A DNA stretch of 21,563 nucleotides from a virus: the IMG/VR virus record IMGVR_UViG_3300030104_003190, positions 1-21,563 of that record; one strand, written 5' to 3'. Of the stretch, positions 1-14,028 are shown one piece after another. Position 1 is the stretch's first letter. Each line of letters begins with the position of its first letter. A model generated the notes under the pieces. That model did no database searches. It saw only the letters and a list, made by a program, of their open reading frames with translations, and was not told the origin of the DNA. The translations under genes were made by a program, and so were the position numbers.

Positions 1-134
1 AAACTATTATCCCCAAGCAAATTTGCTGATTGTATGTAACTTATAAAAAGTAAAATCTGTTTATTAGTTTCATGACTTAGTTGTTTGCCATTCTCATCAA
101 CAAAAACTTTTCTATTTTCTATGTTAATTTTCAT
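1..134 (-). CDS. Partial small hypothetical phage protein (N-terminus only)
   Basis: The reading frame starts at an ATG whose first base is 134 and runs left off the window, giving 44 residues without a stop (begins MKINIENRKVFVDENGKQ). An AGGAGG Shine-Dalgarno at 138-143 sits four bases before the start, which makes the start convincing. It is the last visible member of the leftward cassette series: the conserved 11-mer at 160-170 and a hairpin at 178-195 lie just upstream. The visible peptide is hydrophilic at first and then has a short hydrophobic stretch (ILLFISYI). I do not recognise the family; no function is assigned. Confidence 0.7.
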   Translation of the reverse strand, partial: MKINIENRKVFVDENGKQLSHETNKQILLFISYIQSANLLGDNS

Positions 135-159
135 TATTCCTCCTATGAAAATCTAATTA

Positions 160-170
160 TTACTAAAACG
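160..170 (-). promoter_or_regulatory. Conserved 11-base cassette element, copy 1
   Basis: On the - strand it reads CGTTTTAGTAA. It lies between the hairpin closing the gene at 186-572 and the ribosome binding site of the partial gene at 1-134, with 15 bases between the element and AGGAGG. It is one of six copies in the same relative position. The role (promoter, processing or translational element) is not known. Confidence 0.6.
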
Positions 171-177
171 CTGTTAA

Positions 178-195
178 GCAGGGGCTTAGCCCTGC
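178..195 (-). terminator. Intergenic GC-rich hairpin, copy 1 (terminator-like)
   Basis: A 6-bp stem, GCAGGG paired with CCCTGC, encloses a 6-base loop. The loop (184-189) contains the TAA stop codon (186-188) of the leftward gene at 186-572. A short run of U follows only after several bases, so this is not a textbook intrinsic terminator. It could also be an RNA-stabilising or processing hairpin. Confidence 0.5.
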
Positions 196-572
196 TCTGG
201 ATTGTTTACCTCTTCGATTGTGTCAACGTCTGGGGTGTCTGGTTTCTCAGTCTTAAAAGAAACTGTAGAGATTTCATCAATTCCTGACATTGGATTTATA
301 AACCCAAAGATTTTTATGTCACCTTTGAATTTGTAATCCACAGTTCCATGGTCTTCAATGAGCCGTATGCCATTGCCCCAAACTTGTTGCATTGTGTCGC
401 CCTGCTCATCTGTCCAAGTGTCTTGGTCTTTGTTGTATTCCCAAGCCATTTTGTCAGTGACAGTGACGTATCCATCCTCATCAAAAATGAATAGCATATC
501 TTCAATGCCACCGTTTTTAATGCCAGTTTGTATAGCCTCACCGAGGCTTTGGTTTCTAAATGCCTTATCCAT
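186..572 (-). CDS. Hypothetical phage protein, 128 aa
   Basis: The 128-codon frame starts at 572 behind AGGAGG at 578-583 (five-base spacing) and stops inside the hairpin loop at 178-195. The protein is acidic and begins MDKAFRNQSLGEAIQTGI. Residues about 28-50 (FDEDGYVTVTDKMAWEY) look like a short beta-hairpin; the tail is rich in D, E, P and T. No membrane segment or signal peptide is seen. The VTVTD motif loosely resembles IVVTDN in the 27-residue product at 1480-1563, which may only reflect a common beta-strand pattern. I do not recognise the family. As part of the leftward cassette block it is probably an early or accessory gene, by position only. Confidence 0.8.
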   Translation of the reverse strand: MDKAFRNQSLGEAIQTGIKNGGIEDMLFIFDEDGYVTVTDKMAWEYNKDQDTWTDEQGDTMQQVWGNGIRLIEDHGTVDYKFKGDIKIFGFINPMSGIDEISTVSFKTEKPDTPDVDTIEEVNNPEQG

Positions 573-599
573 AATATCCTCCTGTATGAATAATTGTTT

Positions 600-610
600 T
601 TACTAAGACG
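600..610 (-). promoter_or_regulatory. Conserved 11-base cassette element, copy 2
   Basis: On the - strand it reads CGTCTTAGTAA, 16 bases before the AGGAGG of the gene at 186-572 and three bases after the hairpin at 613-634. It has the same placement as the other five copies. Confidence 0.6.
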
Positions 611-612
611 GT

Positions 613-634
613 TGAGGGGCATTTTTGCCCCTCA
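613..634 (-). terminator. Intergenic GC-rich hairpin, copy 2 (terminator-like)
   Basis: A perfect 8-bp stem, TGAGGGGC with GCCCCTCA, has a six-base A/T loop. It begins two bases after the stop codon of the leftward gene at 637-996. No U-tract follows on the - strand, so termination would be atypical; a transcript-processing or stability role is the alternative. Confidence 0.5.
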
Positions 635-636
635 TA

Positions 637-996
637 TTAAAGGTATAATGGTGGTGGGTATCCTAAACCTCCTGCTTTAGCTTTACCCCACAATAAAAGT
701 CTTATGTAGTGAAATGCTTTTTCATCTTTGCCACCGATATGCCACATATCAATATTTTCTTTATCTAAACCATCAACTGGGTCGTAATTCTTTCCGTCTT
801 TCCAGTTGTAAATTGTTGCAACTGTTTTGTCAGGAAATTCAAACACCCATTCGCACAGTATTTTTGCATCCGAACTCTCACCCAAATGCTCTTTTCCAAA
901 CACTGAAACAAGTTTGTCATAGGATATATTTATATGCCCAATAAAACTAGTTCCAAAGTCATTAAGAGTTGGTTTGATTGTGATTTTTGTTTCCAT
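637..996 (-). CDS. Hypothetical small phage protein with W-H-I-G-G motif, 119 aa
   Basis: I place the start at 996 (METKITIKPTLND) because AAGGAGG lies at 1005-1011, eight bases upstream. An in-frame ATG at 1017 would put this Shine-Dalgarno inside the gene and has none of its own. The protein has a compact pattern: ISYDKLVSVFG near residues 24-34, CEWVFEFPDKTVATIYNWKDG in the middle, and IDMWHIGGKDEKA toward the end. I have the impression that small phage and plasmid proteins of unknown function share this pattern (strand-rich EW/IYNWK core followed by W-x-IGG), but no biochemical role is known to me. It belongs to the leftward cassette array. Confidence 0.8.
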   Translation of the reverse strand: METKITIKPTLNDFGTSFIGHINISYDKLVSVFGKEHLGESSDAKILCEWVFEFPDKTVATIYNWKDGKNYDPVDGLDKENIDMWHIGGKDEKAFHYIRLLLWGKAKAGGLGYPPPLYL

Positions 997-1026
997 GATT
1001 AAATCCTCCTTCATCATGATTATTTT

Positions 1027-1037
1027 TTACTAATACG
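1027..1037 (-). promoter_or_regulatory. Conserved 11-base cassette element, copy 3
   Basis: On the - strand it reads CGTATTAGTAA, the only copy with A at the fourth base. It is 16 bases before AGGAGG of the gene at 637-996. On the + strand it contains TAATACGA, which superficially resembles the left part of a T7-type promoter; see the rejected list. Confidence 0.6.
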
Positions 1038-1043
1038 ATTTAT

Positions 1044-1065
1044 TGGGGGGCATTTCAGCCCCCCA
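1044..1065 (-). terminator. Intergenic GC-rich hairpin, copy 3 (terminator-like)
   Basis: A perfect 8-bp stem, TGGGGGGC with GCCCCCCA, has a six-base loop. It lies five bases after the stop codon (1071-1073) of the leftward gene at 1071-1433. No U-tract follows on the - strand. Confidence 0.5.
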
Positions 1066-1070
1066 TATTG

Positions 1071-1433
1071 TTAGGGTTGTATCTGTTTATCATATTGCTG
1101 AATAACTCTTCTTGCCTCATTCTTAGCCGTTTCAATAAACAGTCTTTTAATTTCTGCCCTGAACTGTCGCCTTGTCTTTGGTATTTCATTGACTTTCATA
1201 CCGATGCAACTTTTAACCATTTCTAAAGTTGGGTATTCAGGTTTTTCAACTGAACCAAAATACATAAATGCCATTTTAGTTTCAATGAGAATTTTATTTC
1301 TCAAGTAAACTTCATGGTAATTATCTTTGGTAATTTCTTGGTAACCTCCGAACATTGCATTAAAACCAAGCACTTTTTCTAGTGCTGAAATTCCTTGTTG
1401 TTCTTTGTTTGGGCTTTCAATTATTAATGACAT
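1071..1433 (-). CDS. Hypothetical phage protein, 120 aa
   Basis: The frame starts at 1433 behind a strong AAGGAGG at 1438-1444 (four-base spacing). The product is mostly helical in appearance. The C-terminal half (about residues 85-118) is rich in R, K, E and Q (KTRRQFRAEIKRLFIETAKN) and could be a basic helix or coiled coil that binds nucleic acid or a partner; this is inference only. No catalytic motif, Cys cluster or membrane span is visible. I do not recognise the family. It is flanked by cassette hairpins at 1044-1065 and 1471-1489, like its neighbours. Confidence 0.8.
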   Translation of the reverse strand: MSLIIESPNKEQQGISALEKVLGFNAMFGGYQEITKDNYHEVYLRNKILIETKMAFMYFGSVEKPEYPTLEMVKSCIGMKVNEIPKTRRQFRAEIKRLFIETAKNEARRVIQQYDKQIQP

Positions 1434-1459
1434 AAATCCTCCTTGGTGTCATTGGTTTA

Positions 1460-1470
1460 TTACTAAGACG
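1460..1470 (-). promoter_or_regulatory. Conserved 11-base cassette element, copy 4
   Basis: On the - strand it reads CGTCTTAGTAA. It follows directly on the hairpin at 1471-1489 with no spacer and lies 16 bases before the AGGAGG of the gene at 1071-1433. Confidence 0.6.
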
Positions 1471-1489
1471 GCAGGGTCATCAACCCTGC
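1471..1489 (-). terminator. Intergenic hairpin, copy 4 (terminator-like)
   Basis: A 7-bp stem, GCAGGGT with ACCCTGC, has a five-base loop. The TGA stop of the 27-codon gene at 1480-1563 lies in the loop, so the last codons of that gene form one arm of the stem. Confidence 0.5.
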
Positions 1490-1563
1490 TCTTTTAAGAT
1501 TGAGAAAATAGAATTATCTGTAACAACTATATTTCCTGTATCATTAATGGATACTTCAATCAT
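1480..1563 (-). CDS. Putative 27-residue microprotein
   Basis: A very short frame on the - strand begins at ATG 1563, five bases behind a strong AAGGAGG (1569-1575), and ends at TGA 1480-1482 in the loop of the hairpin at 1471-1489. It would encode MIEVSINDTGNIVVTDNS followed by IFSILKEQG. The case for a real gene rests on layout. It fills a whole cassette with its own 11-mer, Shine-Dalgarno, frame and closing hairpin, exactly like the longer genes beside it. The alternating hydrophobic pattern suggests a beta-hairpin. Function is unknown. The alternative is a decayed or leader-type cassette. Confidence 0.6.
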   Translation of the reverse strand: MIEVSINDTGNIVVTDNSIFSILKEQG

Positions 1564-1581
1564 TTTAACCTCCTTGATTGA

Positions 1582-1592
1582 TTACTAAAACG
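1582..1592 (-). promoter_or_regulatory. Conserved 11-base cassette element, copy 5
   Basis: On the - strand it reads CGTTTTAGTAA. It abuts the hairpin at 1593-1628 and lies only seven bases before the AGGAGG of the microprotein gene at 1480-1563, the shortest leader in the series. Confidence 0.6.
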
Positions 1593-1628
1593 GTAACGGC
1601 TAGAGGCTTGCGAAACCCTAGCCGTTAC
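1593..1628 (-). terminator. Intergenic hairpin, copy 5, long stem (terminator-like)
   Basis: A perfect 11-bp stem, GTAACGGCTAG with CTAGCCGTTAC, encloses a 14-base loop. This is the strongest hairpin of the series. It follows the stop codon of the leftward gene at 1636-1791 by seven bases. No U-tract follows. Confidence 0.55.
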
Positions 1629-1635
1629 AATCAAA

Positions 1636-1791
1636 CTAAACTTGGTTAGTCTGAACTCTCTCACAGAACATACATTTAGTTTTTGCAGTTCCATCGTCCA
1701 ACCTTTCAATGATTTCACTGACTGGGTGAGAACAATTGAATTGCTCCATTGTGAATTGTTCTGGGTGATTATTAACTATCCATGATGCCAT
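1636..1791 (-). CDS. Putative 51-residue protein with C-x-H...C-x2-C metal-binding pattern
   Basis: A 51-codon frame on the - strand begins at ATG 1791 behind GGAGG at 1796-1800 (four-base spacing) and ends with TAG at 1636-1638. Residues Cys20, His22, Cys40 and Cys43 (NCSH near the middle, KCMFCE near the end) have the spacing of a small zinc-ribbon or treble-clef-like site. That suggests a DNA-, RNA- or protein-binding mini-protein. The layout matches the cassette series: hairpin 1593-1628 closes it and the 11-mer at 1813-1823 precedes it. It is the first protein gene downstream of the structured non-coding region. The specific function is unknown. Confidence 0.7.
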   Translation of the reverse strand: MASWIVNNHPEQFTMEQFNCSHPVSEIIERLDDGTAKTKCMFCERVQTNQV

Positions 1792-1812
1792 GGTTCCTCC
1801 ATTGCTAATTGT

Positions 1813-1823
1813 TTACTAAGACG
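1813..1823 (-). promoter_or_regulatory. Conserved 11-base cassette element, copy 6
   Basis: On the - strand it reads CGTCTTAGTAA. It lies three bases after the hairpin at 1827-1854 and about a dozen bases before the GGAGG of the gene at 1636-1791. It is the rightmost copy; I found none in the + strand structural region. Confidence 0.6.
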
Positions 1824-1826
1824 AGA

Positions 1827-1854
1827 CCAAGCGACAATTTGGAGGGTCGCTTGG
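1827..1854 (-). terminator. Hairpin ending the structured non-coding region (copy 6)
   Basis: A perfect 9-bp stem, CCAAGCGAC with GTCGCTTGG, has a ten-base loop. It marks the likely 3' end of the leftward non-coding transcript and is followed by the 11-mer and the first small gene. Its position parallels the hairpins that follow each protein gene, as if the RNA itself were a cassette. Confidence 0.55.
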
Positions 1855-2508
1855 CGTTGTCGTTGATTTTATCGTTTCGGATTATTAGTCTTTGCATTTA
1901 CCTCAAGCGTTGCCACTTGAGACCATCCACCATCAACAGGTTCGGTTGCATTCCTGACTTGCACAGTTCTTCAGTTAGTAATTTTTTATGAAATAATCTA
2001 GTCTTCCAACGTTTCTGACTCTTCACAGATTTCTTAGGTTCTGAACTGCGTAATCCAATCGCATAAAGTAGTTTTCCGATGTCAGTATTTTAGTCAATCT
2101 CAACCAGTGAAATATAAAAATAGTGACTTGTTTAACATTCGATTATTTATTTGTTGGTGACTTTTTGCATTCTGTCACGGTGTGGTTTCTCTGGCTCCCC
2201 GAAGGCTACAGTTTCCTGTGTGTCGGTGAAAACACTTTGCAAGTTTGGAGGCATCCCAGTTGACTACTTAGGCTCAATTTCTATCAATTCACTTTCATCG
2301 GGATAAGTAGTCCCTTCCAGCAACCTGCGAGACTTGGGGTCTGAGAGGTGAGCCTAAGCCACTTTGCTTTGACCCCTCATCTTTGGTGTTCTACTCAACC
2401 TACTTACCAAGTCCAACCTGTTTCAATCCTAGCGTTTCGGTCTGGGCTTGCATCCAGTATGTCGGAACCCTGACCCCATCTGAGATTTAACTTCATCAAC
2501 TAACCACT
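1827..2508 (-). ncRNA. Candidate large structured non-coding RNA (about 680 nt)
   Basis: No credible protein gene lies between the first leftward gene and terS. A good promoter (2515-2544) fires leftward into this region and a 9-bp hairpin closes it. The - strand transcript has GAAA-capped (2208-2219, ACAG/CUGU) and UUCG-capped (2198-2205) stems; these stable tetraloops appear only in this orientation. Local hairpins include CUCAAG/CUUGAG (1902-1921) and UGCG/CGCA (2047-2063). Long-range pairs are 2407-2413 with 2331-2337 (7 bp), 2371-2376 with 2336-2341 (6 bp), 2349-2358 with 2267-2276 (10 bp), 2304-2312 with 2262-2270 (9 bp), and 2043-2048 with 1964-1969 (6 bp plus wobble). The 10-bp and 9-bp pairings cross and share four bases, so they form a pseudoknot or a switch. 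It does not resemble tmRNA, RNase P RNA or a group I core as I know them. Size and phage context fit giant RNA classes such as GOLLD or ROOL, but membership is only a hypothesis. Confidence 0.55.
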
Positions 2509-2514
2509 CCGTTC

Positions 2515-2544
2515 ATCTTAGCACCATATAAATCAATATGTCAA
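2515..2544 (-). promoter_or_regulatory. Sigma70-like promoter firing leftward into the non-coding region
   Basis: On the - strand a perfect -35 hexamer TTGACA (2539-2544) is followed by an 18-base spacer and TAAGAT (2515-2520), four of six matches to the -10 consensus. Transcription would start near 2508 and read the structured region and then the small cassette genes. It would be used by host RNA polymerase with its housekeeping sigma factor. Confidence 0.5.
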
Positions 2545-2564
2545 CACCTAATTTAAAACGGGAT

Positions 2565-2577
2565 AATGTGACACATT
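2565..2577. promoter_or_regulatory. Perfect 13-base palindrome between divergent transcription units
   Basis: AATGTGACACATT is a perfect inverted repeat (6-base arms, one-base centre). It lies 20 bases upstream of the leftward -35 box and 40 bases before the rightward terS start. The position suits an operator for a dimeric repressor or activator that governs the divergent units; no regulator gene is visible in the window. Confidence 0.35.
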
Positions 2578-2585
2578 CATTTAAA

Positions 2586-2591
2586 TATAAT
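2586..2591 (+). promoter_or_regulatory. Possible -10 box for the rightward structural genes
   Basis: TATAAT matches the consensus and lies 27 bases before the terS ATG. No acceptable -35 hexamer is found 16-18 bases upstream (a GTGACA is too close, at 12 bases), and the region is AT-rich. The call is therefore weak; an activator-dependent or extended late promoter is possible. Confidence 0.25.
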
Positions 2592-2617
2592 TACAACCTG
2601 ATAAAATATAAAAGAGT

Positions 2618-3136
2618 ATGAGCAGGAAAATACAGTTAGATAATAAAAAGATAGATTTAATAAAGAGAGATATTGAACGGCTAGGGCTACACCCTACAAG
2701 TGCCATAATTCGCCACTGTAGGGTTTCTGAGTCTGTGGCTAGTGGTTGGCTCCGTTTCGGTGAGAAAGTCCGAGTTACACTAGATACAGAAGCTAATACA
2801 GATACTGTTACTATAGATACAGTAACTGTTACAGATACTAAGAATATGAACCCTAGTGACAGATACAAGCAACTGACACTGAAATTACATGATACTGTTA
2901 CTGAGGCTGTTACAGAGTTTGAGGCTATGCAATTAACGGAGTTAACGACTGCAGAGAATGAGGCTGTTAAAAGTAAAAATAGCCAGTGGCTCCTGTCTAA
3001 AAAATACCCTGATAGATACGGAGATAATAAGAACCAGACCACAATTGACGACCAAGCAAACGCCCTAATTCAAGCATTAATAAATATAAATATCTCAAAT
3101 CCTGAAGATAAAAAGCCAATAGAGGACACGGCGTAA
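2618..3136 (+). CDS. terS: Terminase small subunit (putative)
   Basis: The 172-residue product should bind the packaging start site and hand DNA to the large terminase. The N-terminus (about residues 10-48, with ASGWLRFGEK) looks like a helix-turn-helix. The C-terminal part has ENEAVKSKNSQWLLSKKYPDRYGD, close to the L-x-K-x-x-P-x-RYG signature found in many small terminases. The linker (about residues 50-75) is a D/T/V-rich low-complexity stretch encoded by AGATAC-type DNA repeats. Position directly before terL supports the call. The start lacks a clear Shine-Dalgarno (only AAGAG). It is the first gene of the rightward block. Confidence 0.75.
   Translation: MSRKIQLDNKKIDLIKRDIERLGLHPTSAIIRHCRVSESVASGWLRFGEKVRVTLDTEANTDTVTIDTVTVTDTKNMNPSDRYKQLTLKLHDTVTEAVTEFEAMQLTELTTAENEAVKSKNSQWLLSKKYPDRYGDNKNQTTIDDQANALIQALININISNPEDKKPIEDTA
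2782..2902 (+). repeat. AGATAC repeat cluster inside terS (possible packaging site)
   Basis: AGATAC occurs at 2782, 2800, 2815, 2833 and 2861, with spacings of 18, 15, 18 and 28 bases. GATACTGTTACT occurs twice, exactly 90 bases apart (2801-2812 and 2891-2902), and AACTGTTACAGATACT lies between them. GTTACT and AGTAAC (2807-2812 and 2821-2826) form an inverted repeat. Repeats recognised by the small terminase often lie in or beside its own gene, so this may be a pac-type site. The simpler alternative is a D-T-V repeat in the protein. Confidence 0.4.
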
Positions 3137-3540
3137 CGCTATACAAAACGCCGTAAGACATTCTAAACTCATAAAGGACAACATTCCCAATTTTTCAGAA
3201 CTATTCCAAACTGACGAAGGACATTCTCAAAAGCATTCTAAATAACAAAATGGGAACGAATGGGAACGTGAGGCACAATGAGGCATGATACCCCCCAAGC
3301 CCCAAAAGCCCGTCTATGAGCCCCTGAGAGCCTCTGAGAGGTGCGTATAATTCGGACTCGGAAAAAAAAATGCGTGTGGTGGGGTGGATGGGTGGTGGTG
3401 GTTGATGGGTGGTCTGGTGTCTGTCTGTGTCTGTGTGTCTGTGATTGTGTGTCGGCTGCAAGGGGGGTGGTTCTTGTGGTCGTTGGTTGGCTGTAGTCTG
3501 TGGTACTACCTCCTGTAAATTTTATGCTAAAATGTGTTTC
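3137..3540. other. Non-coding terS-terL gap with abrupt composition switch
   Basis: About 400 bp separate the terminase genes. From 3137 to about 3250 the + strand is A/C-rich, with CATTC-type repeats (near 3160, 3180, 3222 and 3234). It then has a tandem decamer (3249-3268), a C-rich stretch (3290-3325) and a nine-A run ending at 3369. From about 3370 to 3510 it is almost purely G and T, with several GG and GGG runs that could form a G-quadruplex. A frame open through the G/T part yields a C/G-rich peptide that looks artificial, so I read it as non-coding. It is a candidate part of the packaging or terminus site. Confidence 0.5.
3249..3268 (+). repeat. Tandem decamer, two copies
   Basis: AATGGGAACG is repeated twice head to tail, followed by a near-duplicate TGAGGCA pair (about 3269-3286). 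It lies in the middle of the terS-terL gap where composition changes, so it may be part of a protein-binding site for packaging. Confidence 0.5.
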
Positions 3541-4950
3541 ATGATACATGAACAACGTGATGCCCTATTCGGTGCCATAGGTTACACACCTACGGCTGCC
3601 CAGCTTGATATTCTAAATGATGAGGCAAGATTCAAACTAGTTGCCGGTGGCGTAAGAGCAGGTAAGTCTAACCTTGGGGCTATGTATATGTTTGAAAAGA
3701 TTATGGCTAAGATTGTCGAGGACCCTGATGCTGCTTCTGGCAGTGTCTATTGGCTAGTGGCTGCAGATTACGAGAGAACTAGGGGTGAGTTTGACTATCT
3801 TGGAGATGCCTTTAACAGGCTAGGTATAATTAAACGTGCCACACGTCAGGTTGACCCCGGATACATTGAGGTGTCCGTTGGTTCTAAGAACCTAAAACCG
3901 TTAATAATCAAGACTAAATCTGCAACTGACTACAGAAAACTTGCGATGGAAGCCCCGATGGGCATCGTTGCTTGTGAGGCTTCGCAGTTAGACCAAGAAA
4001 GTTACTGGCGATTGATGGAGAGAGTGGCAGAAAAGCGTGGTTGGGTATTCCTAGAGGGTACTTTCGAGGGAAGTCTGGGATGGTACCCCCAACAATTTAC
4101 CTCATGGCAATCACCGGGTATACAAAATTTAGAGAGTGCAAAAAGTTTTTCACTACCTACATGGACTAATACGCATATATTTCCGTTGGGAGAAGATGAC
4201 CCTGAAATAGAAAAGATGAGAACTGAGCATTCCGATGAATGGTTTAATGAACGTGTCGCCGGAATCCCAAGTCCTCCGAGTGGATTGGTGCATCCGTCAT
4301 TCAATGTAAACATTCATGTAAGAGAAGTTGAGTATGACCCAGACGAGATTGTGTATCTTGCAGTTGACCCCGGCTATTCTAGGATGACCGAAAGTGCGTA
4401 TGCCGTTGAGGTGTGCCACATAATCGATGGGCAAGTGCAGGTATTTGACGAAATTTATGAGAGAGAATTGATTGCTTCCGACATCATCGAGGTAGCCAAA
4501 AAAAGATTTTGGTGGCAGAACACGGATAAGTTTGGAGTGATTGACGTTGCAGGAAATGCACACGCTGGAGCCATGCCATCAAACACTGAGATATGGTTTA
4601 AAGAAGCGAATTTAATCATGCAAAGCCAGCCCGTAAAGATTATTGACGGCATCGAGAGAATGAATAGTATGCTCAAGCCAGACCCGATAGACTTGGAGCC
4701 CGGATTAGTCATTGACCCTACTTGCAAAGGACTGATTTCTGAACTTGGAGGAGGACCAAATCCGTTTGACGGACAGGTCAGAGTTTACAGTTGGCAGATG
4801 AACCGAGAAGGTGGGGTAGTTGGAAATGTTCCGAGAGACAAGTATAATCATGCTGTAAAGGCATTAACTTATCTGATGGTAAATCAGTTTGGATATGCCG
4901 GTAATGAAAACTATCAAAGGGAAGTTATCCCAGTGACGAGATTTAGATAA
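3541..4950 (+). CDS. terL: Terminase large subunit
   Basis: This is the packaging motor: an ATPase that drives DNA into the prohead and a nuclease that cuts it. From the start at 3541 it has 469 residues. The Walker A is GGVRAGKS at 36-43, a Walker B-like segment with the catalytic acid is GIVACEA at 141-147 (E146), and the coupling motif is LEGT at 171-174. RNase H-like nuclease acids are D276 in LAVDPGYS, D335 in GVIDVAGN, and D433/H437 in RDKYNHAVKAL. The frame is open further left into the G/T-rich gap; I reject that extension as compositionally absurd. ATGs at 3532 and 3541 are both possible and neither has a clear Shine-Dalgarno. The stop overlaps the portal start (TAATG). Confidence 0.93.
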   Translation: MIHEQRDALFGAIGYTPTAAQLDILNDEARFKLVAGGVRAGKSNLGAMYMFEKIMAKIVEDPDAASGSVYWLVAADYERTRGEFDYLGDAFNRLGIIKRATRQVDPGYIEVSVGSKNLKPLIIKTKSATDYRKLAMEAPMGIVACEASQLDQESYWRLMERVAEKRGWVFLEGTFEGSLGWYPQQFTSWQSPGIQNLESAKSFSLPTWTNTHIFPLGEDDPEIEKMRTEHSDEWFNERVAGIPSPPSGLVHPSFNVNIHVREVEYDPDEIVYLAVDPGYSRMTESAYAVEVCHIIDGQVQVFDEIYERELIASDIIEVAKKRFWWQNTDKFGVIDVAGNAHAGAMPSNTEIWFKEANLIMQSQPVKIIDGIERMNSMLKPDPIDLEPGLVIDPTCKGLISELGGGPNPFDGQVRVYSWQMNREGGVVGNVPRDKYNHAVKALTYLMVNQFGYAGNENYQREVIPVTRFR

Positions 4951-13158: not shown

Positions 13159-14028
13159 ATGGCAACCACAGCAACTACTGGGAATTTAGAAAATGCCCAG
13201 AACATAATTATTACTGCTGCTAGGTTTACTGAAGAGCACAATGCTCCTGCTATGGCTTTAATTGAGCAAATGAATTTGCCAAAAGGGGCTAAACAGGTAA
13301 CTGTGCCAAAAGTAGGTCAAATGACTATTTCTGATTTACAAGACGGATTCGACATTGTTGATGACGAAGAAATCGGAATGACAACTGTAGACCTTACTGC
13401 TTCAGAAGTCGGAGCAAAAGTAATTCTTACAGACAAACTAATCAGGCAATCTGCAAACAACATTTTTTCAATTGTAGGTAGACAGCTTGGTGATGCAATG
13501 GCAAGAAAAAAGGACACTGATGTCCACGCATTGTACTCAGGATTAAACAAAGGCGTTAGCTTCGGTGCAGATAACACAGCAATGAGTCTTGCAAACGTAG
13601 CAGGTGCAATTGCAAATGCTAAAGGTAAAAAGTTTGGTTCGCAGATTTACATCTTGCAACACCCTTTTGCAACCTTTGACATTGCTAATACAGCAGTAAC
13701 AGCAACAGGTGCAGCAGCCGGTATTCCGGATGGATTTGCAACTGACTTGTTAAATAACTTCTTCTCAAACATTAGACCACTAAACGGTGTTCCAATCTTT
13801 GAAGATGGTAATTTAGCAATTGATGCAGATAATGATGCAGTTGGTGTTATTGCAGATAAATCAGCACTAGGTGTACTTAAATCAGTAGACACTAGAACTG
13901 AAAGACAAAGAGATGCTTCAATGAGAGCAACTGAAATAATAATTACAGCAGACTATGGTGTGTTTGAAATTGACGATACAAAGGGTGCACCTTTGACATT
14001 TGATGCTTCAGCACCAGCAACTTCATAA
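13159..14028 (+). CDS. Major capsid protein
   Basis: The 289-residue product is preceded by AGGAG at 13144-13148, with the stop of the scaffold gene overlapping it. The N-terminus MATTATTGNLENAQNIIITAARFTEEHNAP is followed by PKGAKQVTVPKVGQM, LTASEVGAKVILTDKLIRQS and DAMARKKDTDVHALYSG. This pattern (N-arm, then strand and long helix) is typical of HK97-fold coat proteins. The C-terminal third contains NGVPIFEDGNLAI and a strand-rich segment ending YGVFEIDDTKGAPLTFDA. It has no cysteine and even amino-acid use, like highly expressed coat proteins. The fold is inferred from pattern and position after the scaffold, not from a search. Confidence 0.87.
   Translation: MATTATTGNLENAQNIIITAARFTEEHNAPAMALIEQMNLPKGAKQVTVPKVGQMTISDLQDGFDIVDDEEIGMTTVDLTASEVGAKVILTDKLIRQSANNIFSIVGRQLGDAMARKKDTDVHALYSGLNKGVSFGADNTAMSLANVAGAIANAKGKKFGSQIYILQHPFATFDIANTAVTATGAAAGIPDGFATDLLNNFFSNIRPLNGVPIFEDGNLAIDADNDAVGVIADKSALGVLKSVDTRTERQRDASMRATEIIITADYGVFEIDDTKGAPLTFDASAPATS

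Follow-up and report, generated by a model that had tools for sequence, protein, structure and literature searches.

A candidate new family of large phage RNA with a shared pseudoknotted 3' domain and alternative bodies at the head of an early-gene block

Very few bacterial RNAs of the size and complexity of the one described here are known to us, among them GOLLD and ROOL, which are borne by phages and have, to our knowledge, no assigned function. A phage RNA gene near packaging genes is also found in phi29, whose packaging RNA resembles the present RNA in this location; the RNA described here is much larger, however, its phage has a conventional large terminase, and it has no Rfam match. GOLLD is pseudoknotted, combines a conserved 3' half with a variable 5' half and assembles into an RNA nanocage, a 14-mer, and ROOL, which is large and phage-encoded too, contains several pseudoknots (PMC12286853). 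Suppression of early termination by an element of the nascent RNA has been described as well, for HK022 put (PMC9378689). Here we describe positions 1827-2508 of a 21,563-nucleotide (nt) stretch of viral DNA, IMG/VR record IMGVR_UViG_3300030104_003190 (the window; all coordinates refer to it). The window covers part of a tailed-phage genome in which small - strand genes lie to the left of a + strand terminase and head block, and the region in question, read on the - strand from 2508 to 1827, stands between the two gene blocks at the head of the leftward early genes. From comparison of related sequences we are highly confident that it encodes a large structured noncoding RNA, which is best read as a new family among the large ornate RNAs of phages.

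Like GOLLD, this RNA has a conserved 3' and a variable 5' region: between the window and the relative L003 the 3' domain (1827-2000) is ~80% identical, while the rest of the RNA reaches 45%, against 38-43% for shuffled sequence, and despite this divergence of the body the small terminase gene beside the RNA is >90% identical between the same phages. GOLLD often lies near tRNA islands and sometimes contains an internal tRNA, whereas no tRNA gene was found in the window, nor in a pair of relatives that are nearly complete, and the present RNA heads an early block opposite the terminase genes. With ROOL it shares large size, phage origin and multiple pseudoknots but not a position beside a tRNA island. 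HK022 put resembles it as a structured RNA acting on early phage transcription (PMC9378689) and in its place relative to the early operon, a comparison by position only; the present RNA is far larger and has a closing hairpin of its own. An Rfam cmscan of the region and its relatives gave no match at gathering thresholds, and what appeared at relaxed thresholds (MIAT, mir-129, caiA and the like) was set aside as chance matches. The GOLLD, ROOL and other large-RNA models, which the original prediction had proposed as a check, were run and matched at neither gathering nor relaxed thresholds. For GOLLD (RF02032) a family search at E values up to 10 returned one 7.9-bit chance match elsewhere, with controls that stayed below the cut-off, and for ROOL (RF03087) neither cmscan nor the family search gave a match, a weak negative since the family-search controls were unresponsive. 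Of the two options left by that prediction, membership in GOLLD or ROOL is thus disfavoured by the missing Rfam match and tRNA island, and a new class is the better reading. No published description of this RNA was found in the open-access literature.

Relatives were gathered from IMG/VR with two kinds of query, the terminase proteins and a conserved stretch of the RNA. At least 15 contigs contain all or nearly all of the RNA region and two more contain parts; position and orientation are constant, always opposite the small terminase gene, and the length from promoter to end hairpin ranges from 677 to 825 nt. The ~700 base pairs (bp) without a credible gene that had drawn attention to the region hold up, as no open reading frame of more than 60 amino acids lies across 1827-2508 and no reading frame is kept through the region among the relatives compared, so that a conserved protein frame, named beforehand as grounds for refutation, was looked for and not found. 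A frame of 50-60 amino acids present in most sequences of one body type (type B, below) was set aside, being frame-shifted in L018 and absent from the other (type A). The lack of a conserved frame and the compensatory changes in several helices are two general traits of large structured phage noncoding RNAs; on a third, transcription as a discrete RNA, the promoter and end hairpin described below bear. The RNA and the elements of its 3' domain are as follows.

1827-2508, - strand: large noncoding RNA, ~680 nt, without conserved open reading frame and with covariation
1949-1968, - strand: most conserved stretch, AACUGUGCAAGUCAGGAAUG, invariant or nearly so, its exact pattern present in 14 contigs
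1947-1950, - strand: 5' arm of pseudoknot helix a, UGCA (UGCA/UGCA, UGAA/UUCA and UGCU/AGCA among relatives)
1893-1896, - strand: 3' arm of helix a, UGCA, covarying
1932-1938, - strand: 5' arm of pseudoknot helix b, UGUUGAU (GUUGAU/AUCAAC, AUUGAU/AUCAAU and GUGGG/CCCAC among relatives)
1861-1867, - strand: 3' arm of helix b, AUCAACG, covarying
1902-1921, - strand: hairpin c with a GCAA tetraloop, 6 of 7 pairs changing on both sides, 97% paired
1880-1890, - strand: hairpin d, just before the conserved CCGAAA, one compensatory pair, 83% paired

For this domain nine distinct sequences were aligned (alignment A4). Twelve of its 22 pairs change on both sides, and 92.4% of the cells are standard pairs, compared with 78.7% in shuffled and at most 48.5% in slid controls; none of 500 shuffles was as good, except for the count of pair types. 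From 5' to 3' the elements run a, b, c, a', d, b', which interlaces helix a with helix b as a pseudoknot; both helices covary. The GCAA loop of hairpin c is closed by G-C, C-G or U-A in different relatives, while hairpin d is weak in the window, with one C-A mismatch, and reads GUUU/AAAC in type B. The structures were drawn on the same related sequences that served to count changes, and the covariation counts, strong as they are, do not amount to a formal significance test.

Upstream of the shared 3' domain the relatives fall into different kinds. Type A bodies occur in the window, L007/L025, L040 and part of L010; type B bodies, distinct from these, occur in L003, L006, L009, L014, L021, L042 and L063. 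A further middle part is found in L011/L012, L018 belongs to type B as a distant member, and L024 differs throughout. The first part of type B itself exists in two versions, one like L003 and one like L009, and L042 mixes parts. By comparison, a 3' domain that is shared and pseudoknotted is joined to a 5' and middle body in at least four alternative versions, and we read the RNA as a mosaic whose modules have been replaced by recombination.

The bodies appear to be folded as well. In the type B middle domain (alignment A5, six sequences, seven helices) 13 of 38 pairs change on both sides, 97.3% of the cells are paired and 0 of 500 shuffles match this. Helix 1 (CCGAR/YUCGG) crosses helix 2 (UGUUG/CAAUA, CAUUG/CAAUG or CGUUG/CAACG), which makes a second pseudoknot, helix 1 being the weaker of the two since it rests on one varying pair. 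For type A three full sequences could be compared, and the parallel-strand control contained zero helices with at least two compensatory pairs. The automatic alignment that includes L018 (set B2) admits chance helices, its parallel control being as rich, and a helix was used only if a closer set showed it too or if it belonged to a hairpin whose loop is kept. The body elements in the window are these.

2407-2413, - strand: 5' arm of a type A helix, GACUUGG, three compensatory pairs against L025/L040
2331-2337, - strand: 3' arm of the same helix, CCAAGUC (GACUUGG/CCAAGUC becomes GGUUCGG/CCGAACC)
2502-2508, - strand: 5' end of the RNA, AGUGGUU, pairing with 2319-2325, one compensatory change in L040 (A-U to G-C)
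2319-2325, - strand: partner of the 5' end, GGUUGCU, same helix and evidence
2157-2178, - strand: hairpin e, GUGAC-(AGAAUGCAAAAA)-GUCAC, with the loop motif GAAUGNNAAAA common to types A and B
2267-2358, - strand: 10-bp pairing of 2349-2358 with 2267-2276, a candidate helix that is invariant in L025 and L040

In type B the stem of hairpin e becomes CUGUU/AGCAG, GAGUU/AGCUC or AGUG/CACU with its loop motif kept. The helices that are well supported by these comparisons, namely the 3' pseudoknot domain and 2331-2337/2407-2413, differ from those first proposed. The original prediction had named a 10-bp complementarity (2349-2358/2267-2276) and a 9-bp one (2304-2312/2262-2270), and both exist exactly as described; the latter, however, retains 8 of 9 pairs in L025 and 7 of 9 in L040 with no compensation. 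Its pseudoknot at 2264-2314, in which loop 2304-2310 would pair with 2264-2270, decays to 6 of 7 pairs in L025 and 5 of 7 in L040, and the UUCG-capped stem (CCUUCGGG) is absent from L025 (GUUCGGGG). The general claim of a large, ornate, noncoding - strand phage RNA with a pseudoknot is nevertheless borne out by covariation and by the absence of a conserved frame, with the covarying pseudoknots at 1861-1950 and in the type B middle domain rather than where one had been placed.

The ends of the RNA are marked by a promoter and a hairpin, both of which had been recognized at the outset.

2515-2544, - strand: sigma-70-like promoter, TTGACA-18-TAAGAT with TG before the -10, an equivalent site being present in all aligned relatives
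1827-1854, - strand: terminal hairpin CCAAGCGAC/GUCGCUUGG, 9 bp, compensatory pairs at 3-4 positions
1813-1823, - strand: CGTCTTAGTAA element 3' of the terminal hairpin, the same element that follows hairpins between early genes

The promoter (2544-2515) is a joint best-scoring sigma-70-like site within 1-3600, a segment that holds no excess of such sites overall (11 found, 9.6 expected), and L024, the most divergent relative, has a perfect TTGACA-17-TATAAT promoter. The loop of the terminal hairpin holds CCUCC (GGAGG on the + strand, 1841-1845), which is present in every relative, including L018 and L024 with a wholly different stem. Within the 3' domain a GGGAGG/GGGUGG stretch was considered by eye as a partner for this loop and dropped, since the stretch varies while the loop is constant. 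Among off-consensus cells in the supported helices 34 are G-U and 6 are A-C (G-U having been allowed when the helices were drawn), and this excess, the promoter and the end hairpin together point to the - strand as the RNA strand.

Nearly all leftward early genes are preceded by a GC-rich hairpin and, after it, the 11-base element CGTNTTAGTAA. The copies of this element on the - strand lie at 160-170, 600-610, 1027-1037, 1460-1470, 1582-1592 and 1813-1823, six found against 0.65 expected, the copy at 1027 reading TTACTAATACG on the + strand; it recurs in eight relatives and may serve in processing, in regulation or as a promoter. The gene directly downstream of the RNA varies between relatives: in the window it is a gene (1636-1791) for a 51-amino-acid cysteine-containing protein, and unrelated proteins take its place in L003, L009 and L011, giving the early block the look of an array of cassettes. 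On the other side a low-complexity GTGTCTGTGTCTGTG / GGTGG tract (3360-3490) lies between the small and large terminase genes.

2618-3136, + strand: small-terminase-like gene, the name resting on position only
3541-4950, + strand: large terminase
13159-14028, + strand: major head protein

No copy of the RNA turned up when 50,697 phage records were searched at the nucleotide level, and exact-pattern and terminase searches of 84,980 bacterial and archaeal genomes found neither a copy nor a host. Within the collections searched the family is restricted to one phage lineage, and its carriers are uncultured and apparently marine bacterial viruses. The 3'-domain covariance model gave weak matches only over 68 loci with distant terminases, the best of them on the downstream side of the terminase gene, a place in which the RNA is never found.

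Phages at a greater distance (terminase 48-50% identical) have, in the position taken by the main RNA in the window, a second candidate RNA of ~370 nt that is unrelated to it. This candidate is seen in L105:3911-4531, L110 and L129 and in L124:1798-2408 and L127 (- strand), with ~80% identity between the two groups; a helix GUAAGU/ACUUAC changes to AUAAGC/GCUUAU, covariation is not above the parallel control, and there is no Rfam match. In L103:271-2371, L108:3241-4501 and L113 the equivalent gap holds 1-2 kb of AT-rich, mostly noncoding DNA with repeated TGTACATAA motifs.

As an overall explanation we favour, at somewhat better than even odds, a structured RNA with its own promoter that is made early as a separate and stable molecule and acts in trans as a scaffold; for the narrower proposition of a separate, stable, trans-acting RNA in the style of GOLLD and ROOL the balance is about even. 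Soon after infection, host RNA polymerase would transcribe it ahead of the other products of the leftward early block, the RNA would accumulate on its own, and it would act as a folded scaffold in the manner proposed for GOLLD and ROOL, perhaps by forming an RNA-only oligomer or by attaching to ribosomes through CCUCC, the anti-Shine-Dalgarno core; exchange of the body would then alter the binding partner while the 3' chassis stays. That the directly downstream gene differs between relatives argues for an independent product, since the RNA then does not serve one particular gene and is either independent or concerned with the whole operon. We tentatively suggest, without considering it the likelier case, that a conserved pseudoknotted 3' chassis carries exchangeable folded bodies swapped between phages by recombination, possibly driven by different hosts or defences. 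Several observations weigh against the favoured explanation. The relatives are few and closely related, so that compensatory counts are not independent events, and the end hairpin has no clear U-run, which leaves some doubt about a separate 3' end. The folding energy of the single sequence is unexceptional (z -0.62 on the - strand, -0.17 on the + strand), and 1827-2508 alone therefore does not prove structure. Consensus folding beats shuffles on both strands, the type A z being stronger on the + strand, and the strand is accordingly not decided by consensus energies. The membership of L024 rests on position and motifs only, and the covariance model found no match for its 3' domain at the expected place, where by eye UGCA/UGCA and UGCUAUU/AAUAGCA are possible in the same order as helices a and b.

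The same position at the head of the operon also suits a giant cis-acting leader, which we regard as possible though improbable: the RNA would form the 5' untranslated part of this operon of leftward early genes and promote read-through of the inter-gene hairpins like HK022 put, or regulate the operon otherwise. In every relative the RNA is found between the operon promoter and the first gene, on their strand, a hairpin with CGTNTTAGTAA separates every early gene, so that read-through may matter, and put itself provides a precedent. However, put needs far less than ~700-800 nt, the hairpins mostly lack U-runs, so that it is not clear that any termination would have to be overcome, and the RNA is closed by a hairpin of its own; the changing first gene excludes regulation of a single gene, not of the whole operon. 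The constancy of CCUCC in the end loop, kept even in L018 and L024 where the stem is replaced, and a GGAGG shortly after the hairpin at the next gene could instead indicate an antisense regulator in trans that pairs with phage or host Shine-Dalgarno sequences, the rest being a stabilising body. We consider this unlikely, as a five-base match is not specific and such a regulator could do without pseudoknots and interchangeable bodies.

Relationship to a known family, in the form of a diverged GOLLD or ROOL missed by the Rfam models, is very improbable in our judgement: length, phage location and a kept 3' half with a variable 5' half (PMC12286853) are similar, yet no model matched even at relaxed thresholds, a weak negative given that controls failed to respond or stayed below the cut-off, and there is no tRNA island. 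We give hardly any credence to a mere DNA element beside the terminase genes (a packaging site, origin or recombination hot spot) without functional RNA; adjacency to these genes and exchange of the body between relatives would fit it, but a GCAA hairpin with a covarying closing pair, crossing covarying helices, G-U pairs and a kept promoter are traits of a transcribed RNA.

The favoured reading, an early structured RNA acting in trans, would add a further family of large RNA whose natural module exchange shows which parts are replaceable and which has a defined early promoter. If the RNA is indeed early and trans-acting, it would offer one more independent system in which to ask why giant RNAs are worth their cost to phages, and the exchange of bodies on a constant chassis, if true, would be the RNA counterpart of the swapping of recognition domains in proteins.
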